A stretch of 64,000 nucleotides of DNA from Eggerthellaceae bacterium. GTDB taxonomy: Bacteria; Actinomycetota; Coriobacteriia; Coriobacteriales; Eggerthellaceae. Positions 29,148 to 37,478 of the stretch are shown piece after piece. The stretch lies in NCBI GenBank assembly GCA_017431165.1, contig JAFRLO010000048.1, forward strand, positions 1-64,000, in the 5' to 3' direction. Both the position numbers and the translations under genes were made by a program. The notes under the pieces were generated by a model. That model was not told where the DNA came from, did not search any database, and saw only the letters and a list, made by a program, of their open reading frames with translations. The first letter of the stretch is position 1; each line of letters begins with the position of its first letter.

Positions 29148-30503
29148 CTACAATGGGAGTCTTGCTGTGAAGGTCGTGCCTGCTTCAGCGGTGCTTGCAA
29201 CTTCGAGTGAACCGCCATGCTCTTGAGCGATGCCGTATGCGATGGCTAAGCCGAGTCCGTGGCTGTCGCCATCGTTTACGCGTGCCTTATCCACGCGATA
29301 GAAGCGATCGAAGATATGCGGCAGGTCCTCTGCCGGAATCGGATCACCCTCGTTATGCACGGTCATCCGTGCCATGCGATCCTCACGCTCAAGCTCCAAT
29401 GTGACTACGGATCCAGCTGGCGCATACTTGCATGCGTTGTCGATGAGCGTTTGCACGAGCCTGCGAACGCGTGATGGTGTACCGACAACGTGGATGTTGG
29501 GGGCAACTGTGCTTGTGAATTCCACGTTGCGCTCGAACGCGACGCTTTCGAATTCGAGGAACTCGCCTTGAACCATCGTACTGAAATCGATGTCCTCGCG
29601 CGGCATCGTTGTGTCTCCTTCATCGATCTGCGCCATGGTAAGCAAATCGTCGACCAGCTGCTTCATATGCTCTGCCTCAGTCTTCGTGCTTTCCACCCAT
29701 TGCGAGTTCTTCGCGATGGTTTCGTCGGCGTTGTCGAGAAGAATTGAGCTGTTTGCAAGGATGACCGTGAGCGGGGTCTTGAGGTCGTGCGAGGCATCGC
29801 TCACGAACTGCCGCTGCTTATCCCATGCTTCCTCGACGGGACGTAATGCCCAACGACTGAAGAATAAACTGATTATGAAGAAGATCAAAAGCGCGCCGAT
29901 GCCAACGAGTGCCAACGTGGCTGCAAGGTCCTTCCATCCAGATGTCTCACTCTCGTCTACGAACGCGACGTAGGTCGTCTGATTCACGGTGCGCTTCAAA
30001 TAGTGCACACCGAGGGCATCGATGGTGTCGTCCTGCGCTGCTTGGTCAATGATGGTATTGCTTGCCGTGCTCAAATCGGCATCGATAAGATACGCTGAGC
30101 TTGAAGCGCTCGCCAATGTGAGCTTGCCGTCTGAGATGCGGTAGACGGCCACGGGAATCGAGCTCATCCGATCATCTTTACCTCCTATGCGCGGTGGCAT
30201 GCCTTGATCCATGCCCTCGTTCGGAGGCTCTGGTGGAATGGTGCCATCGTAGTTGAGAATCTCTCCTTCGCGTGAAGCCATTCCGTTCGCATCGAGCCCG
30301 CCACCGAAATTGCCGCCATCGCGATTATTCGTTTGGCGGAATGCCGCATCGTTGATCGATGTTTCCATTGCTTCATGGACGTTGGTGAGGGTTTGCTGAT
30401 GGTTGATAACGACAATCCCAGAGAAAACGACGATGATGACGGCGGCAACCGTCACCATGTTGAGCGCGATGAATTTTTGGCGTAGCTTCTTAAGCATCGG
30501 CAT
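29148..30503 (-). CDS. Sensor histidine kinase
   Basis: A 451-residue membrane kinase. Helix one is at residues ~12-32; an extracytoplasmic sensor of ~160 residues, rich in Gly, Asp and Met in its first part, runs to the second helix (LAATLALVGIGALLIFFIISLFF region). The H-box DASHDLKTPLT contains the phospho-accepting His; the N-box DNACKYAP and the G-box GLGLAIAYG complete the ATPase domain. The gene overlaps the response regulator by 14 bp and is transcribed after it. The stimulus is unknown. Confidence 0.92.
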   Translation of the reverse strand: MPMLKKLRQKFIALNMVTVAAVIIVVFSGIVVINHQQTLTNVHEAMETSINDAAFRQTNNRDGGNFGGGLDANGMASREGEILNYDGTIPPEPPNEGMDQGMPPRIGGKDDRMSSIPVAVYRISDGKLTLASASSSAYLIDADLSTASNTIIDQAAQDDTIDALGVHYLKRTVNQTTYVAFVDESETSGWKDLAATLALVGIGALLIFFIISLFFSRWALRPVEEAWDKQRQFVSDASHDLKTPLTVILANSSILLDNADETIAKNSQWVESTKTEAEHMKQLVDDLLTMAQIDEGDTTMPREDIDFSTMVQGEFLEFESVAFERNVEFTSTVAPNIHVVGTPSRVRRLVQTLIDNACKYAPAGSVVTLELEREDRMARMTVHNEGDPIPAEDLPHIFDRFYRVDKARVNDGDSHGLGLAIAYGIAQEHGGSLEVASTAEAGTTFTARLPL

Positions 30504-31227
30504 CCCCGTCCGCCTGTGCGGGGGAGGCCTCTGGGCCGTTGCCGTCCATATCTTTGACGGCTTCTACGAGGCGATAGCCCGCTTTGCGCAGCGTTTCGAT
30601 GTGTGCATTCGAGCCAAGGAAATCGAGCTTCTTGCGTACGAACCTGATATAGGATTCCACGTTGTTGTCTTCTGCGGTGGAATCCGAGCCCCACACGCGG
30701 TCGATCAGCAGCTCCTTGCTGATGGTCTGACGCGGGTTGCTCATAAAGGTCTTCATGATGCCGAATTCCTTGAAACTGAGATGGATGCTTTTATCGCCAC
30801 AGGCCAAGTCATAGCTCTTGAGGTCAAGTGACAGGTCCGAGAACGTGAGTTTCTCGAAGATAACTTCGCCTTGGCGCCTGGTGAGCGCGCGGATGTGGGC
30901 GAGTAGTTCTGCCGGCTCGAAGGGCTTCGTCATGTAGTCATCGGCTCCGCTGTCAAGCCCGGTGATCTTATCGCGTACCTGGTCTCGTGCGGTGAGCATG
31001 AGAACCGGTGTGCTGACGTTCTTACGGCGCAGATTCGCCACGACCTCGAAGCCATTCATTTTCGGCAACATCACATCCAGAACGATGACGTCATAGATGC
31101 CACTTGCAGCCCAATCGAGTCCGTCTTGCCCGTTATGTACAGATTCGGCTTCGTAGCCATTGTGGCGAAGCACCTGCTCTAAAGCACGTGCTAAAGCTAT
31201 ATCGTCTTCAACAACTAGGATTCTCAT
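30490..31227 (-). CDS. OmpR/PhoB family response regulator
   Basis: A 245-residue regulator. Receiver residues are clear: the acidic pair in VVEDD, phospho-acceptor Asp in VLDVMLPKMNG, Thr/Ser in LMLTARD and Lys in TKPFEPAEL. A winged-helix DNA-binding domain fills residues ~125-225 (LSFKEFGIMKTFMSNPRQTISKELL region). I use ATG at 31227, with GGGGA 6 bp upstream; a frame 15 codons longer exists but lacks a family match. It is the first gene of the operon with the histidine kinase. A tandem TTTCAG box 78 bp upstream suggests it controls its own promoter and, through further copies, moeA and the VTC operon. Confidence 0.94.
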   Translation of the reverse strand: MRILVVEDDIALARALEQVLRHNGYEAESVHNGQDGLDWAASGIYDVIVLDVMLPKMNGFEVVANLRRKNVSTPVLMLTARDQVRDKITGLDSGADDYMTKPFEPAELLAHIRALTRRQGEVIFEKLTFSDLSLDLKSYDLACGDKSIHLSFKEFGIMKTFMSNPRQTISKELLIDRVWGSDSTAEDNNVESYIRFVRKKLDFLGSNAHIETLRKAGYRLVEAVKDMDGNGPEASPAQADGDADA

Positions 31228-31304
31228 GTGCGTCCCCAAGTATCGTATGTGTAAGTAGTGCATCGCTTTCATGCGGTGCGTTACACCATATTCTACTAGT
31301 CCGT

Positions 31305-31326
31305 CTGAAAAGAACCTGAAAGAAAT
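31305..31326 (-). promoter_or_regulatory. Tandem TTTCAG box, site 1, upstream of the response regulator
   Basis: On the minus strand TTTCAG occurs at 31321-31316 and again at 31310-31305, start to start exactly 11 bp, with GTTCT between them. PhoB/OmpR regulators bind direct repeats with this period. A TAGAAT -10-like hexamer lies 9 bp beyond the second repeat, pointing to the response regulator gene. Confidence 0.55.
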
Positions 31327-31396
31327 ATAGGGTAAATATGAACCAGCGCTTGCGCCAGGATGACCGCTTGAAGGCGACTTCGGAACGTATTCGCCC

Positions 31397-32662
31397 CTAT
31401 TCTCCCATTGGCAGGCTTTCGTCGGCTGTGCATACGATGCACGTTACGATATCGCCCATACGTACACCGTCCAGACCCTCGGGAATCACAGCGAAGCAGT
31501 TGCAACGTTGGAGCGCGCCGAACAAGGCCGACGATTGGTTCTTCAGCAAAACGACCTCGTACCCATCATCTGTCTGCGAAAGCACGGCTCGTTCGAGGAA
31601 CACACGCGGATCCTTTTTACGAATGTCGCAGGTGATGCGTGCTTGTACGGTCGGGCGATCAAGCTGTGTATAGCCCTGCATGATGCGCATGGCAAGCCGT
31701 ACATATAGTTCGAAGCCCATCGAAGATGCCGCTGGGTTGCCGGACAGCACGAACACCGGCGCACCGTTGATTTCTCCAAATGGTTGAGATTTACCCGGTT
31801 TAACACTCACACGCTCGAAATGCATGGTGCCGAGTTCTGTAAGGATGCCTGGTGTCAGATCAAAATCGCCCAGACATGCCCCGCCGGTGGAAACAACGAG
31901 ATCGCATTCTGCAACGGCTTGGAGATAAACCTCCTTGATCGCATCGACGTCATCGGGAACGGTGGGGTAGACCTTCGGGATACCGCCTGCGGCGGCAACA
32001 TATGCCTGCATCGCCCATACGTTCGAATTGCGGATCATGCCGCGAGCGGGAACCTCGTTGGCCTCAACGAGCTCGCTACCGATGGAGATGAGCCCTACGA
32101 CAGGACGTGCGTACACCTCGACGTACAGGTTGCCACATGCGGAGAGCAGGCCGGCGCCTGCGGCAGTGATGACTTCGCCTGCCTCGACGACTACGTCTCC
32201 CGCTTTTGCTTCCTCTCCCGCGTAGCGGATGTTCTTGCCAACAGTTGTTGGCGCGCAGAACGTGATGGTATCGCCGATGGTTCCTTCTCCTGTGAACGTG
32301 ACATCTTCGATCTTTACGACGGCATCTGCGCCCTCGGGGATGATCGCGCCAGTCATGATGCGAGCCGTTTGCCCAGGTTGCAGAATGCCTTCGAACACGC
32401 CGCCGGCACCGATATGGTCAACGCATTCAAGTGCGACAGGAGCATCGTCGGTTGCCGTTTCGATATCAGCCGCGCGAACCGCGAATCCGTCCATGGCGCT
32501 GTCATCGAATGGGGTGACATCGATATCGCTTGTCAGGTTGCGAGCTACGACTCGTCCAACTGCATCCGTGACCAAAACGGTTTCCGTGCGTCCTGGTTTG
32601 ATATGGTTGCGGACGATGTTCCGGGCTTCTTCGATGGAGATCGGAGTTGGGGCTTGTCTCAT
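31397..32662 (-). CDS. moeA: Molybdopterin molybdenumtransferase MoeA
   Basis: A 421-residue MoeA, the enzyme that hydrolyses adenylated molybdopterin and inserts molybdate to give the molybdenum cofactor. Recognisable blocks are DVTPFDDSAMDGFAVRA, the PGQTARIMTGAIIPEGADAVV region, ISIGSELVE, the VVSTGGACLGDFDLTP active-site loop and PVFVLSGNPAAS. ATG at 32662 follows GAGG; a frame extended by ~117 codons upstream crosses the regulatory region and is not credible. This cofactor step serves the three molybdoenzymes encoded in this window. The gene lies alone, with a tandem TTTCAG box 157 bp upstream. Confidence 0.93.
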   Translation of the reverse strand: MRQAPTPISIEEARNIVRNHIKPGRTETVLVTDAVGRVVARNLTSDIDVTPFDDSAMDGFAVRAADIETATDDAPVALECVDHIGAGGVFEGILQPGQTARIMTGAIIPEGADAVVKIEDVTFTGEGTIGDTITFCAPTTVGKNIRYAGEEAKAGDVVVEAGEVITAAGAGLLSACGNLYVEVYARPVVGLISIGSELVEANEVPARGMIRNSNVWAMQAYVAAAGGIPKVYPTVPDDVDAIKEVYLQAVAECDLVVSTGGACLGDFDLTPGILTELGTMHFERVSVKPGKSQPFGEINGAPVFVLSGNPAASSMGFELYVRLAMRIMQGYTQLDRPTVQARITCDIRKKDPRVFLERAVLSQTDDGYEVVLLKNQSSALFGALQRCNCFAVIPEGLDGVRMGDIVTCIVCTADESLPMGE

Positions 32663-32818
32663 GGTAAGACCTCGTTTTCGGTGTATTCCGACAGTACACG
32701 CATAGCATGCAGATGGTTCTTGCTTAACAATAATACTCTTTCTCGACGATTGTTGTGGCGGGAAAAGAAAAGACATTCGCATCGTATCAGCATAGGGAGA
32801 GAGCTCCCTGGAGTCATT

Positions 32819-32840
32819 CTGAAAAGAACCTGAAAGAAAC
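32819..32840 (-). promoter_or_regulatory. Tandem TTTCAG box, site 2, upstream of moeA
   Basis: Minus-strand TTTCAG at 32835-32830 and 32824-32819, 11 bp apart with GTTCT between. The 21-bp core is identical to site 1 and similarity extends over about 38 bp. It reads toward moeA, 157 bp from its start. Confidence 0.55.
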
Positions 32841-32878
32841 TTGGGGGAATTATGAATCCGATGAAACATGCCGTGACC

Positions 32879-32895
32879 TTTCAGATTGTTTTCAG
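32879..32895 (+). promoter_or_regulatory. Tandem TTTCAG box, site 3, upstream of the VTC operon
   Basis: Plus-strand TTTCAG at 32879-32884 and 32890-32895, again 11 bp apart, with ATTGT between. Including the preceding C, 16 of 18 positions equal site 1. CACAAT follows 10 bp later as a possible -10, and the VTC start is 112 bp downstream. Confidence 0.5.
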
Positions 32896-33006
32896 CTTGC
32901 ATGGGCACAATGCAAACCGTCAGATGGGGCGAAGGGTTCAAAACCGCTAAGCGAATCGAACTCGCGCCCAGCTCCGAAAGACGGAGTGCAAACCAAGGAG
33001 GCGCAC

Positions 33007-33885
33007 ATGGCAAGCTACAACAACACCTTCCAGCGCAAGGAAGTGAAATATCGCCTGACGCCGCGTCAACTGCAGGCGATCTTAGAAGCCATCGAAGGCC
33101 ACATGAAGGTCGACCGCTATGGCGATACCGTCATCGAGAGCCGTTACTACGACACGCCTCACCGCGAGCTCATCGAGCGTTCCCTGGATAAGCCTTTGTA
33201 TAAGGAAAAGCTCAGGCTGCGCTCGTACGGGCCCTTCTCCTTGGCGGGAATCGTGTACGTGGAGCTCAAGAAGAAGTACAAGGGCATCGTGTATAAGCGC
33301 CGCATTGGCATGTCGAAAGCTGCAGCGCAGGCTTTCGTCGCCGGTATGGACTTCGAGGATGCCGCGACGCGTTATCCGTTGGCGGACGCCGCACTGCAAA
33401 ACGAGCTTTTAAGCCCGCATGGGCGCCAGATCGCTGCCGAGATCCGCGCGTTCTGCCTGCGCTATCCGGGGCTTGTCCCCTCGATGGACATCTCGGTGGT
33501 GCGCCGCTCCTATGAGCCTGCATCGCACGCAGCAGCAAGCACCATCACCTTGCAAGGCGCGCCGAGTACCGATCTGCGCATCACGTTCGATATGCAGATG
33601 CGTGGTCGCGACCTGATGCGCGACTCACATCCGACCTACGAGCTTGCCGGTCGCGGCGAAGCTGTCATGGAGATAAAAAGCATCGGTTCCTACCCGCTGT
33701 GGCTAACCGAGGCGCTTTCCTCCAATAAGATCTATCCGCAATCGTTCAGCAAGTACGGCGAAGCGTATAGGCAAAGCGTTATGCCCACGCCCATCAAACC
33801 TGCCGCGTCTGTTGCGGTTGCCCTGACCACTGCAGCCAATATGGCCGTCCTGAAAGGAAGTGCATCATGCTTGAAAGCCTCGTAA
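33007..33885 (+). CDS. VTC-domain protein (polyphosphate polymerase-like)
   Basis: A 292-residue protein with the VTC tunnel-fold domain over most of its length. Basic residues expected in the polyphosphate/triphosphate tunnel are present: QRKEVKYRL at the start, ESRYYDTP, KEKLRLRSYG and VELKKKYKGIVYKRR, with the late VMEIKS segment carrying the acidic metal ligand. ATG at 33007 follows AAGGAGG; a longer frame begins inside the regulatory region. In yeast Vtc4 this domain makes polyphosphate; bacterial copies are paired with DUF4956 proteins, as here. Whether it polymerises phosphate or binds another polyanion is open. Overlaps the next gene by 19 bp. Confidence 0.88.
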   Translation: MASYNNTFQRKEVKYRLTPRQLQAILEAIEGHMKVDRYGDTVIESRYYDTPHRELIERSLDKPLYKEKLRLRSYGPFSLAGIVYVELKKKYKGIVYKRRIGMSKAAAQAFVAGMDFEDAATRYPLADAALQNELLSPHGRQIAAEIRAFCLRYPGLVPSMDISVVRRSYEPASHAAASTITLQGAPSTDLRITFDMQMRGRDLMRDSHPTYELAGRGEAVMEIKSIGSYPLWLTEALSSNKIYPQSFSKYGEAYRQSVMPTPIKPAASVAVALTTAANMAVLKGSASCLKAS

Positions 33886-34562
33886 CCAGCGTCTACGGGT
33901 CTGCTGATTCCCTTGCTGGCAACGTAACCTCGTTCGATTTTTTGCTTTGCTGTTTGTTCTCCATCGTGCTCGGCGTGGCTGTCGCATGCATTTACATGTT
34001 CCGCCACAACTACTCGAAGAACTTCGTCGTGACGCTCGCGCTCATGCCGCTCATCGTGCAGATGGTGATCACCTTGGTCAACGGCAACATCGGCGCCGGC
34101 ATCGCTGTGATGGGCGTGTTCAACCTTGTGAGATTCCGCAGCATCCCTGGTTCTGCGAAGGATATCGGAAGCGTGTTTCTTGCCATGGCAGTCGGCCTGG
34201 CAACGGGCATGGGATACTTGGCCCTCGCGGTGGTGTTCACCATCATCACGGCCATCGCGAACCTTATCTTCGTGCTCTCACCGCTTGGCAAGCAGAAGGA
34301 GCCTGGCAAATCGCTTACGGTGACCATTCCAGAGGATCTTCCATACGAAGGCGTCTTCGACGAAGTGCTTGACCACTATACCGACCGCTGCGAGCTTGTC
34401 GAGGTGTCGACCTCGAACATGGGAAGCCTGTACCGTTTGCGCTATGACATCCGTATGAGGCAGGCGGGCATGGAGAAGCAAATGATCGATGAGCTGCGCT
34501 GTCTGAACGGTAACCTCAAGATCACGCTCGGGCGACAAGCAGCGACGAAAGATGTGCTATAG
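33867..34562 (+). CDS. DUF4956 family membrane protein
   Basis: A 231-residue protein with four hydrophobic segments in residues ~28-135, including LLCCLFSIVLGVAVACIYMF and IGAGIAVMGVFNLVRFRSIPGSAKDIG, followed by an ~85-residue soluble C-terminus. Starts inside the VTC gene (19-bp overlap) with GGAAG at good spacing, so translation is coupled. DUF4956 next to VTC and a Cthe_2159-type protein is a recurrent arrangement; a membrane partner for polymer export or sensing is an inference. Confidence 0.88.
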   Translation: MLESLVTSVYGSADSLAGNVTSFDFLLCCLFSIVLGVAVACIYMFRHNYSKNFVVTLALMPLIVQMVITLVNGNIGAGIAVMGVFNLVRFRSIPGSAKDIGSVFLAMAVGLATGMGYLALAVVFTIITAIANLIFVLSPLGKQKEPGKSLTVTIPEDLPYEGVFDEVLDHYTDRCELVEVSTSNMGSLYRLRYDIRMRQAGMEKQMIDELRCLNGNLKITLGRQAATKDVL

Positions 34563-34635: not shown

Positions 34636-36195
34636 ATGATGACAATGAAGAGATCGCATCGTATCGCAACGGCTGCGGCGGCGCTCCTTTTAGTGGCGGG
34701 GCTGGGGCTTCCCGGCTGCGCGGCGGCGACGTCGAGTTCGAGCTCGGGCACTTCGAGCACGACTGCTACGGCGACCTCGTCTAGCTCGAGCAAGCTTGTG
34801 AGCAAGGTCGCAGGCATGACGCAGATCTATAGCGGCAAGGATCTCCTTGACGTAAGCCAGATGGATTTCGAGTATTCGAAGAAGGATCAGGATTCAAACT
34901 ATGACGCATCTTCGGCGACCACCATCACGCTTTCGGGTTCTTCGGCGACGTCGAGCTCGAGTACGGGCGTGAAGATCGACGGCTCGACGGTCGCCATCAC
35001 GGCCGAGGGCACGTATGTGCTCTCCGGTACGCTGACGGACGGTCAAATCGTAGTCGAGGCGACCGATGCGGACAAAGTGCAACTCGTGCTCAACGGTGTG
35101 ACCATCAAAAATAACGATGGGCCGGCCATCTACGTGAAGCAGGCCGATAAGGTGTTCATCACGCTTGCAGCTAACTCGAAGAACGTCCTTGAAGACGGCA
35201 GCACGTACACGCTGGAGGCTGGCGAGGATGAACCCGACGCAGTCATCTTCAGCAAGGATGACCTGGCTATCAACGGTACAGGCTCGCTGTCCATTACCGC
35301 GAACTATTCGAATGCCATCAAAAGCAAGGATGATTTGATCATCACGGGTGGCACCTTCGACATAACTGCAAAAGATGATTGTTTGAAGGGCAAGGATTGC
35401 GTCAAGATCCTCGATGGAACGTTCACGTTGAACGCAGGCGATGACGCCATCACTGCGAGTAAAGAGCAAGACCCCTCGAAGGGCTTCGTGCTCATCGATG
35501 GCGGCACGTTCGCCATCAAGGCCGATGGCGATGCGATCAAAGCGGTTAATCTGGTAGCCATCACAGGTGGCACTTTCGACATCACGTGCGGTGACGATGC
35601 CGTGAAGAGCGATATCGAGACGTACATCTGCGGCGGAAACCTGAAGATCAATGCCGGCGATGACGCGATCCATGGCGAATTCGGCCTGACGATTGACGAC
35701 GGAACCATCAACATTTCAACGTGTACGGAAGCGCTCGAAGCCGAGGTCGTACGCATGAACGGCGGCGATGTGACGCTGTACGCCACGGATGACGGCGTGA
35801 ATGCTAGCGTGGGCGAGCTCTACACCGAAGAAGACTCCTCAAGCTCCTCAAGCTCCGGCAGCCAACAGGGCTTCGGCGGCATGGATCAGCCTGAAGTATC
35901 CACGAACTGCCTGATCGAGATCAACGGCGGTAAGCTCGACATCACGATGGCGCAGGGCGACACTGATGCGCTCGATTCCAACGGCTATCTCAAGATCAAC
36001 GGAGGCACGGTTACGATCAGTGCGCAGTTCGCATTCGACTACGAGCTCGGTGCTGAGCTCAATGGTGGCACCGTTACCGTGAATGGGCAGCAGGTTACAC
36101 AGATTACCGAGTCCATGATGGGCGGCGGTGGTATGGGCGGTCAGCAGCCCGGTGGCATGGGCGGCCAACGGCCTGGCGGCGGTATGCGCCCATAG
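34636..36195 (+). CDS. Cthe_2159-type carbohydrate-binding lipoprotein
   Basis: A 519-residue secreted lipoprotein. A lipoprotein signal peptide ends in GLGLPGCA, so the mature protein begins at Cys; a Ser/Thr-rich linker follows. The rest is a right-handed parallel beta-helix with repeats such as ITGGTFDITxGDDAV, matching the Cthe_2159 carbohydrate-binding family, whose founding member binds polygalacturonate and cellulose. The C-terminus is Gly/Met/Gln-rich. ATG at 34636 follows GGAAAGG. It lies 73 bp after the DUF4956 gene and ends with a strong terminator, so it closes the three-gene operon. Confidence 0.87.
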   Translation: MMTMKRSHRIATAAAALLLVAGLGLPGCAAATSSSSSGTSSTTATATSSSSSKLVSKVAGMTQIYSGKDLLDVSQMDFEYSKKDQDSNYDASSATTITLSGSSATSSSSTGVKIDGSTVAITAEGTYVLSGTLTDGQIVVEATDADKVQLVLNGVTIKNNDGPAIYVKQADKVFITLAANSKNVLEDGSTYTLEAGEDEPDAVIFSKDDLAINGTGSLSITANYSNAIKSKDDLIITGGTFDITAKDDCLKGKDCVKILDGTFTLNAGDDAITASKEQDPSKGFVLIDGGTFAIKADGDAIKAVNLVAITGGTFDITCGDDAVKSDIETYICGGNLKINAGDDAIHGEFGLTIDDGTINISTCTEALEAEVVRMNGGDVTLYATDDGVNASVGELYTEEDSSSSSSSGSQQGFGGMDQPEVSTNCLIEINGGKLDITMAQGDTDALDSNGYLKINGGTVTISAQFAFDYELGAELNGGTVTVNGQQVTQITESMMGGGGMGGQQPGGMGGQRPGGGMRP

Positions 36196-36286: not shown

Positions 36287-37003
36287 TTAACGTGCTCTGT
36301 CGAAACGCCTTGCCAGTTTTGCGATGCCGATGCCAAAAAGCATCCAAAGCATCATCATGGTGATGTTCTCGATAAAGACCATCACCGATGTCGTTCCATA
36401 CGTCAGATGCGTTACGAATGTATGGAATAGCATATAGTTGATTATTCCGCTTTTCAGAAAAAAGAACAGACCTGTGCATGCGATGCATGCAAGCACGATC
36501 AATAGCACTCTTTTTGTCGTCTTGCTGAGTTTTGCCGCGATTATGGGGAGATGGAAGCCAAGATGTATACCCATCAATATGAACAGCCAGTACGAGATGG
36601 CGCGGTGGATGCGCCGCGCTAGCGATGCGCGTATCATGCCGTACAAAAACGGCGTCGCATGGCTGCTGATCGCCATGCCGCTGAATGTGTCAAGCGCGAA
36701 GACGATGAGCACAATCACATCCAATATGGTCATGACGATGCGGCTTGCGCGGTATTTCCCTTTGATGAGTGAACCATACCATTTCCGGTTGAGGAGCTGG
36801 TGCGCGATGACGATGACGAGCATGGCTATGCCGACCCATTCATGAATCTTATTGCCCGTGACTTGGAACGACATCAGAACGATCAAGAGTGCGGTCAGGA
36901 TAATATCGGCCGTCCGCTTTCCGATGCGTTTCGTTCTCGTCTGTGCGTTTCCCGATATTCCGAGAACCTGCCGCATATGCCCCGATTCATCGTCACCGTG
37001 CAT
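36287..37003 (-). CDS. DUF4405-type membrane protein, probable b-type heme carrier
   Basis: A 238-residue membrane protein with about six hydrophobic segments. Paired histidines in adjacent helices (HEWVGIAMLVIVIAHQLL and RIHRAISYWLFILMGIHLGFH) fit axial ligands of b-type hemes, as described for DUF4405 and related cytochrome b561-like proteins. I place the start at ATG 37003 with AAGGAG just upstream; a TTG 45 bp earlier lies in the flavodoxin gene. It begins 16 bp after the flavodoxin stop, suggesting the two form a membrane-to-flavodoxin electron path. Function is not established. Confidence 0.75.
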   Translation of the reverse strand: MHGDDESGHMRQVLGISGNAQTRTKRIGKRTADIILTALLIVLMSFQVTGNKIHEWVGIAMLVIVIAHQLLNRKWYGSLIKGKYRASRIVMTILDVIVLIVFALDTFSGMAISSHATPFLYGMIRASLARRIHRAISYWLFILMGIHLGFHLPIIAAKLSKTTKRVLLIVLACIACTGLFFFLKSGIINYMLFHTFVTHLTYGTTSVMVFIENITMMMLWMLFGIGIAKLARRFDRAR

Positions 37004-37019
37004 ATGCTCCTTATGGTGG

Positions 37020-37478
37020 CTAGGCTTCTTCTTCAATGATCTCGGCAAGGTCCTTGTTTAGAAGCTTGCCCTCCACGATGGTCAGATCTGGGAACAGCTT
37101 CGTCAGATCCTTGATGGCCCGGTCGATCCTCGAACCGCCTGAGGTCGCGAAGATCTTTATCTTTTTGCCTGAGAGGTCATAGGTGTCGAGGAAGGTGTGG
37201 ATGAGCGTCGGTGCGGTATACCACCAGATGGGGAAGCCCAGATAAACTTCGTCGTATGCGCTGAAGTCGGCATCGTGATCGGCGATGTCGGGCTTCTCGG
37301 ACCAGTCGCGCATTTCCATGGTCGCACGGCTATCGCGGTTCATCCAATCGAGGTCGAGCCTGTTGTAGGGAAGTGCGGCTTCGATTTTGTACAGGTCGGC
37401 GCCAACGAGCTCTGCGAGCTGCTGCGCCTTCTCCTCGGTCGTCCCGGTTGCTGAGAAATATGCGACGAGCTTGGTCAT
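37020..37478 (-). CDS. Flavodoxin
   Basis: A 152-residue flavodoxin. The FMN phosphate loop reads YFSATGTTEEKAQQLAE at the N-terminus, and the later loops with LGFPIWWYTAP and FATSGGSRI surround the flavin. Start ATG at 37478 follows AAGGAA. It is the first gene of an operon with the DUF4405 membrane protein and diverges from a molybdoenzyme operon across a 323-bp region. It is likely a one- or two-electron carrier that can replace ferredoxin. Confidence 0.9.
   Translation of the reverse strand: MTKLVAYFSATGTTEEKAQQLAELVGADLYKIEAALPYNRLDLDWMNRDSRATMEMRDWSEKPDIADHDADFSAYDEVYLGFPIWWYTAPTLIHTFLDTYDLSGKKIKIFATSGGSRIDRAIKDLTKLFPDLTIVEGKLLNKDLAEIIEEEA

Follow-up and report, generated by a model that had tools for sequence, protein, structure and literature searches.

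A conserved TTTCAG tandem box as the predicted operator of a PhoP-type two-component system and its neighbouring VTC operon in Eggerthellaceae

The region 31305-32895 of the window (the whole stretch of 64,000 nucleotides analysed here) contains three copies of one short tandem repeat, TTTCAG-N5-TTTCAG, upstream of a response regulator (RR) gene, a moeA-like gene and a VTC-domain gene, and raises the question of which protein reads this box and whether all three genes belong to one regulon, as the earlier note had proposed. Our preferred reading, to which we give a probability of roughly 87% on the evidence of sequence comparison, is that the box is the tandem site of the adjacent PhoP-type RR and replaces the -35 element, that the RR would activate the rr-hk operon (hk being the sensor histidine kinase gene, HK) and the VTC-DUF4956-Cthe_2159 operon, and that the box upstream of moeA would be a duplicated ancestral operator. 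The features of the locus are displayed in Table 1. The three 17-bp boxes are exact at the positions and on the strands first reported for them, and every copy is oriented toward its gene (RR start at 31227, moeA start at 32662, VTC start at 33007).

Table 1. Genes, boxes, promoter elements and repeat copies of the locus (positions are those of the window).
Feature	Position	Strand	Remarks
Sensor histidine kinase (HK)	29148..30503	-	Pfam HisKA and HATPase_c; overlaps the end of the RR gene
Response regulator (RR), OmpR/PhoB type, 245 aa	30490..31227	-	PF00072 (E 1e-30), PF00486 (E 3e-19); recognition helix NNVESYIRFVRKK; predicted binder of the box
-10 of the rr-hk promoter, TAGAAT	31290..31295	-	9 bp downstream of box A
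45-bp repeat, box A copy (TTCATATTTACCC...TTTCAGGTTCTTTTCAGACGGACT)	31298..31342	-	
Box A, TTTCAGGTTCTTTTCAG	31305..31321	-	predicted RR binding site, rr-hk promoter
moeA-like molybdotransferase gene	31397..32662	-	Pfam MoeA_N, MoCF_biosynth, MoeA_C
45-bp repeat, box B copy	32812..32856	-	far side of moeA, same orientation
Box B, TTTCAGGTTCTTTTCAG	32819..32835	-	about 156-157 bp upstream of moeA
Box C, TTTCAGATTGTTTTCAG	32879..32895	+	predicted RR binding site, VTC operon promoter
-10 of the VTC operon promoter, CACAAT	32906..32911	+	10 bp downstream of box C
VTC-domain (polyphosphate-polymerase-type) gene	33007..33885	+	PF09359 (E 1.5e-32); first in the predicted target operon
DUF4956 membrane protein	33867..34562	+	PF16316 (E 2e-16); overlaps the VTC gene
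Cthe_2159-type surface beta-helix protein	34636..36195	+	PF14262 (E 1.7e-88); probable third operon gene

The RR carries a receiver domain and a Trans_reg_C winged helix, both above the Pfam gathering score, which places it in the OmpR/PhoB family. In Eggerthellaceae the usual gene order is HK-RR divergent from VTC-DUF4956-Cthe_2159. A search of the PDB by sequence gave no relatives of the VTC protein.

The comparison set consisted of 138 genomes of the same family, and within it a box facing the gene (one mismatch at most) was found in 63 of 75 distinct VTC upstreams (mean of Markov-shuffled sequences 0.07) and in 52 of 60 upstreams of adjacent RRs (shuffled mean 0.03), counts that have to be read with the fact that loci of related genomes are not independent of one another. 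Only N5 was enriched among the 16 spacings tried (0 to 15). These counts are in favour of two proposals made from the window alone, namely autoregulation of the RR and control of the VTC operon, both of which are strongly supported as predictions. The box is followed by a -10 element at a fixed distance, which is TACAAT or TAGAAT at 9 bp for RR genes and a TAGGAT-like hexamer at 10 bp for VTC genes. In the 72 distinct strict sites counted at RR/VTC/DUF4956 loci, the N9 spacing was present in 34 of 35 RR sites and N10 in 37 of 37 VTC and DUF4956 sites (VTC alone 33/33), all facing the gene, and none of the 72 was without an RR, VTC or DUF4956 gene downstream. The fixed orientation and the fixed distance from box to -10 hold across 28 genera, and the window conforms to this, with TAGAAT 9 bp downstream of box A and CACAAT 10 bp downstream of box C, the latter hexamer being CAGAAT in two congeners and box A being invariant in 17/17 columns within the genus. 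The RR-based two-component system (TCS) itself was detected in 37 of 48 sampled genera. The same box stands before the TCS operon and before a neighbouring target operon and is conserved in relatives, as in an autoregulated local TCS regulon.

Two side observations concern the arrangement of these promoters. In divergent RR/VTC regions the spacing of the two boxes tends to fall into four groups (28-31, 39-40, 49-50 and 59-60 bp, with peaks at 29, 39, 49 and 59-60 bp) that differ by roughly a turn of the helix; this phasing is suggestive, with relatedness uncontrolled and distances of 23, 43 and 56 bp also occurring. In genus g44 (four loci), DUF4956 is located outside the VTC operon with its own box and -10.

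The source genome is a 1.2-Mb MAG (67% complete), and exact TTTCAG-N5-TTTCAG has four matches in it, three of which are at the locus, while the 17-bp pattern at one mismatch or fewer has 6 matches in the whole MAG against 1 for the reversed pattern. The full-architecture pattern TTTCAGN5TTTMAGN9-10TANNAT, scanned over the 138 whole genomes, gave 118 sites, and the reversed control gave 1; since the locus promoters had served to design the pattern, the locus sites among these are not independent evidence, and about 40 sites lie elsewhere. The view that the repeats are due to chance or to a genome repeat family, and are not operators, could be based on the 45 bp shared by two of the copies, as is seen in repeat elements, but we regard it as refuted by the low copy number, by the reversed control and by the -10 distance and orientation kept across genera. 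The motif is thus not scattered through genomes, as had been anticipated for a true operator.

The presence of the RR and of strict sites was compared across genomes (RR called at E<=1e-60), and 68 genomes had both, 24 the RR only, 5 a site only and 41 neither (p=6.6e-13, in a test that ignores relatedness), meaning that 24 of 92 RR-bearing genomes are without a strict site. In genomes where no RR adjoins VTC, the best RR hit has the box in 10 of 12 cases (one mismatch at most), and it can be said that the box goes with the regulator both at unlinked genes and in the comparison of whole genomes. Together with the adjacent RRs above, this agrees with the expectation that relatives retaining the TCS retain the box, although a few (G050, G111) keep the RR without a recognisable one. 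The proposal that the adjacent OmpR/PhoB-type regulator reads the box is, by this conservation and linkage-independent co-occurrence, strongly supported as a prediction. It is improbable that a different regulator reads the box, such as the second OmpR-type RR that is nearly universal in the family: of 29 genomes, 5 do have TTTCAG repeats and a TACAAT -10 before the gene of the second RR, so that the box might be shared with another regulator, and five genomes have the site without a detectable VTC-type RR, but the other 24 of 29 second-RR copies have no box (those of both checked g1 genomes among them), completeness is only 70-77% in four of the five genomes that have sites but no RR, the presence of the site tracks the VTC-type RR, and the latter has the box almost always, linked or not.

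Where the unlinked sites could be read, the genes behind them are RR orthologs, Cthe_2159 genes and one DUF4956 gene standing alone, the second RR, PspA and, in all three congeners as well as in one further genus, a DUF4405 gene; some sites precede proteins read as HtrA-like and MreB, and about a dozen are without a clear target. The DUF4405 gene lies on another contig of the source genome and has a complete site (G000:C37:4015-4047), which recurs in the congeners (G091:C29, G092:C188), and this gene is therefore a predicted, conserved further target. The regulon had been described as local, which holds in the main but not entirely, due to this DUF4405 site. The DUF4405 membrane protein behind the site has the C-terminal cysteine motif CNLCKKRCPLSAPxCDKPYxAGLI, and in genus g39 a complete site is also present before a DUF4405-like gene. 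Another DUF4405 protein is encoded directly beyond the Cthe_2159 gene (window 36287-37048, minus strand), and no TTTCAG box was found before it. In other genera, isolated complete sites (five loci) were seen before HtrA-like, PspA and MreB-like genes, and such targets would suit an envelope-stress theme.

The closest solved structure to the RR by sequence is Mycobacterium tuberculosis PhoP (PDB 5ed4/3r0j/9ji3, E 1e-43). PhoP occupies TCACAGC repeats as a tandem dimer, and their period is strictly 11 bp (PMC4832192). The PhoP site TCACAGC-N4-TCACAGC is a direct repeat with the same 11-bp period as here, and the half-site bases T..CAG are in common (PMC4832192). The base-contacting PhoP residues N212, E215, S216 and Y217 are identical in the recognition helix of the RR, whereas V213 is replaced by N and Y220 by F. 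Both V213 and Y220 contact C5 of TCACAG, the base that is T in TTTCAG, while contacts to the common half-site positions T4, C7, A8 and G9 come for the most part from the residues that are conserved. We do not take the RR for the ortholog of M. tuberculosis PhoP, with four contacts the same, two different and a half-site that is TTTCAG instead of TCACAG; additionally, descriptions of PhoP call it an essential regulator of virulence, whereas the RR here has few predicted promoters outside its own locus.

PhoB was rejected as the identity of the RR as well, because the RR scores 192 bits against the curated PhoB model, for which the cut-off is 296. The Pho box bound by PhoB is an 11-bp direct repeat that stands for a -35 and is read by an OmpR/PhoB-type RR. 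The system here is alike in the type of RR and in an 11-bp direct repeat that appears to replace the -35, and differs in the half-site. By site format alone, a likeness is also seen to streptococcal CiaR, with its site TTTAAG-N5-TTTAAG followed by a suitably spaced -10 (PMC3091779): half-site length, N5, 5/6 bases and a -10 at fixed spacing are shared, but CiaR belongs to another phylum and its known targets differ, with small RNAs among them and 15 promoters counted in S. pneumoniae. Some VTC loci examined here carry exactly TTTAAG-N5-TTTAAG.

Repeats of TTTCAG, TTTAAG, TTTCAA or TTTTAG are also present at the same locus in Clostridia, in 9 of 21 RR upstreams (0.18 expected) and in 7 of 59 VTC upstreams (0.87 expected). 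Among the nine Clostridia-side RRs with a motif, all five with TTTCAG/TTTCAA have Glu or Asp at the PhoP-E215 position, and all four with TTTAAG/TTTTAG have Trp there; exceptions are two Eggerthellaceae RRs that have Glu but TTTAAG, and with a sample that is small and related, the apparent correlation of helix and half-site is a lead only. To hypothesize further, a PhoP-type lineage tied to VTC-DUF4956-Cthe_2159 loci in Actinomycetota and Bacillota might keep TTTNAR-N5-TTTNAR and swap half-site bases with single helix residues, with moeA rewired in this genus by insertion beside a duplicated operator; we hold this wider picture to be tentative.

The part of the proposal that is not supported is moeA as a third target equal to the RR and VTC genes. 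A -10 at 9 or 10 bp from box B is absent in all three congeners examined, where AGGGAG, GAAGAC or AGGGAA occupies its place, and the three genomes of this genus are the only ones in which moeA separates RR from VTC. In other genera checked, the canonical moeA (about 50% identity) is elsewhere, including one genome (G134) where it is downstream of the VTC operon. As a side observation, D16-34 and Adlercreutzia agrestimuris have moeA behind the VTC operon, on the strand of the operon (L153 8259-9494, L080 11849-13156), which is a second association of moeA with the locus.

Boxes A and B had been said to share a longer identity, and indeed 22 identical bases lie inside an alignable repeat of 45 bp (local score 62, shuffled maximum 31). 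A degenerate third half-site is found 3' of box B (32808-32824). The distance between boxes B and C is 60 bp, and the RR and VTC boxes of other genera are at nearly the same distance (60 bp in Eggerthella sinensis, 59 bp in Gordonibacter pamelaeae); box B also has the TTC prefix that is typical of RR-side boxes in the group of these two species. Because of the 60-bp spacing, the 45-bp repeats flanking moeA and the location of moeA elsewhere in other genera, the sequence suggests that box B is the ancestral RR-side operator, and that the duplicate came from moeA insertion. The element TTCATANTTNCCC was considered as a second operator and rejected; within G000 and G091 it is found only at the two repeat copies and, confined to two duplicated sites, it reads as part of the duplication, with its conservation unexplained.

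We hold it to be less likely that box B is a working third operator and that moeA, perhaps as a moeA-rr-hk transcript, is under the same RR from a promoter further downstream. Box B with its 5' flank is the best-conserved stretch between moeA and VTC (37 of 39 columns in the best window are invariant in the three genomes, against a background of 45%), its orientation is right, its distance to moeA is constant, and about 80 bp further downstream there is a conserved TATTAT. This is weighed against a missing -10 that nearly all other sites of the family have, against a position that ancestry explains, and against moeA at the other loci examined, where no box precedes it. The conservation of box B in the genus may point to some remaining role, on moeA or on VTC.

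If the reading of the box as an operator of the PhoP-type RR is right, the kinase would phosphorylate the RR, and the phosphorylated RR would occupy both half-sites, which are separated by one turn of the helix, as a head-to-tail dimer. The box would stand for the -35, with 9 bp between it and the -10 at rr-hk and 10 bp at the VTC operon, and there the RR would recruit RNA polymerase; through box A it would activate its own operon in positive feedback, and through box C it would activate VTC-DUF4956-Cthe_2159. Box B would be the RR-side operator of an old divergent RR/VTC promoter region, into which moeA may have entered between box B and the RR gene, with duplication of the operator segment so that one copy remained on each side, and only copy A would have retained a -10. 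The sequence supports this scheme in the positions, conservation and spacing of the boxes, in the -10 elements, in the linkage-independent co-occurrence and in the recognition-helix identity with PhoP, while we infer binding, the dependence on phosphorylation, the order of duplication and the direction of regulation, activation being favoured because the box occupies the position of the -35.

The VTC domains of yeast are polyphosphate polymerases. In other Gram-positives, polyphosphate-polymerase, DUF4956 and CotH genes accompany Pel clusters, where the polyphosphate-polymerase gene is next to the DUF4956 gene, as here (PMC7112168); the difference is that the Cthe_2159 protein joins this pair here instead. 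No TTTCAG operator was found in that description of Pel clusters (PMC7112168), and a literature search with Eggerthella, response regulator and polyphosphate found no description of this TCS. For Cthe_2159 domains a relationship to adhesive beta-solenoids is described (PMC9210967), and from the relations to VTC, Pel clusters and beta-solenoids, a response of the cell surface, or one that involves polyphosphate, is plausible.

The box is real and conserved and very probably an operator, and a PhoP-type autoregulated TCS is a known kind of system. The result gives a concrete, testable layout of operator and promoter for a TCS found in the majority of the genera sampled from a family that is common in the gut, ties this TCS to the VTC/DUF4956/Cthe_2159 operon and predicts the DUF4405 gene as a further target. 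Additionally, comparison of half-sites with recognition helices could test how PhoP-type regulators shift their DNA specificity.
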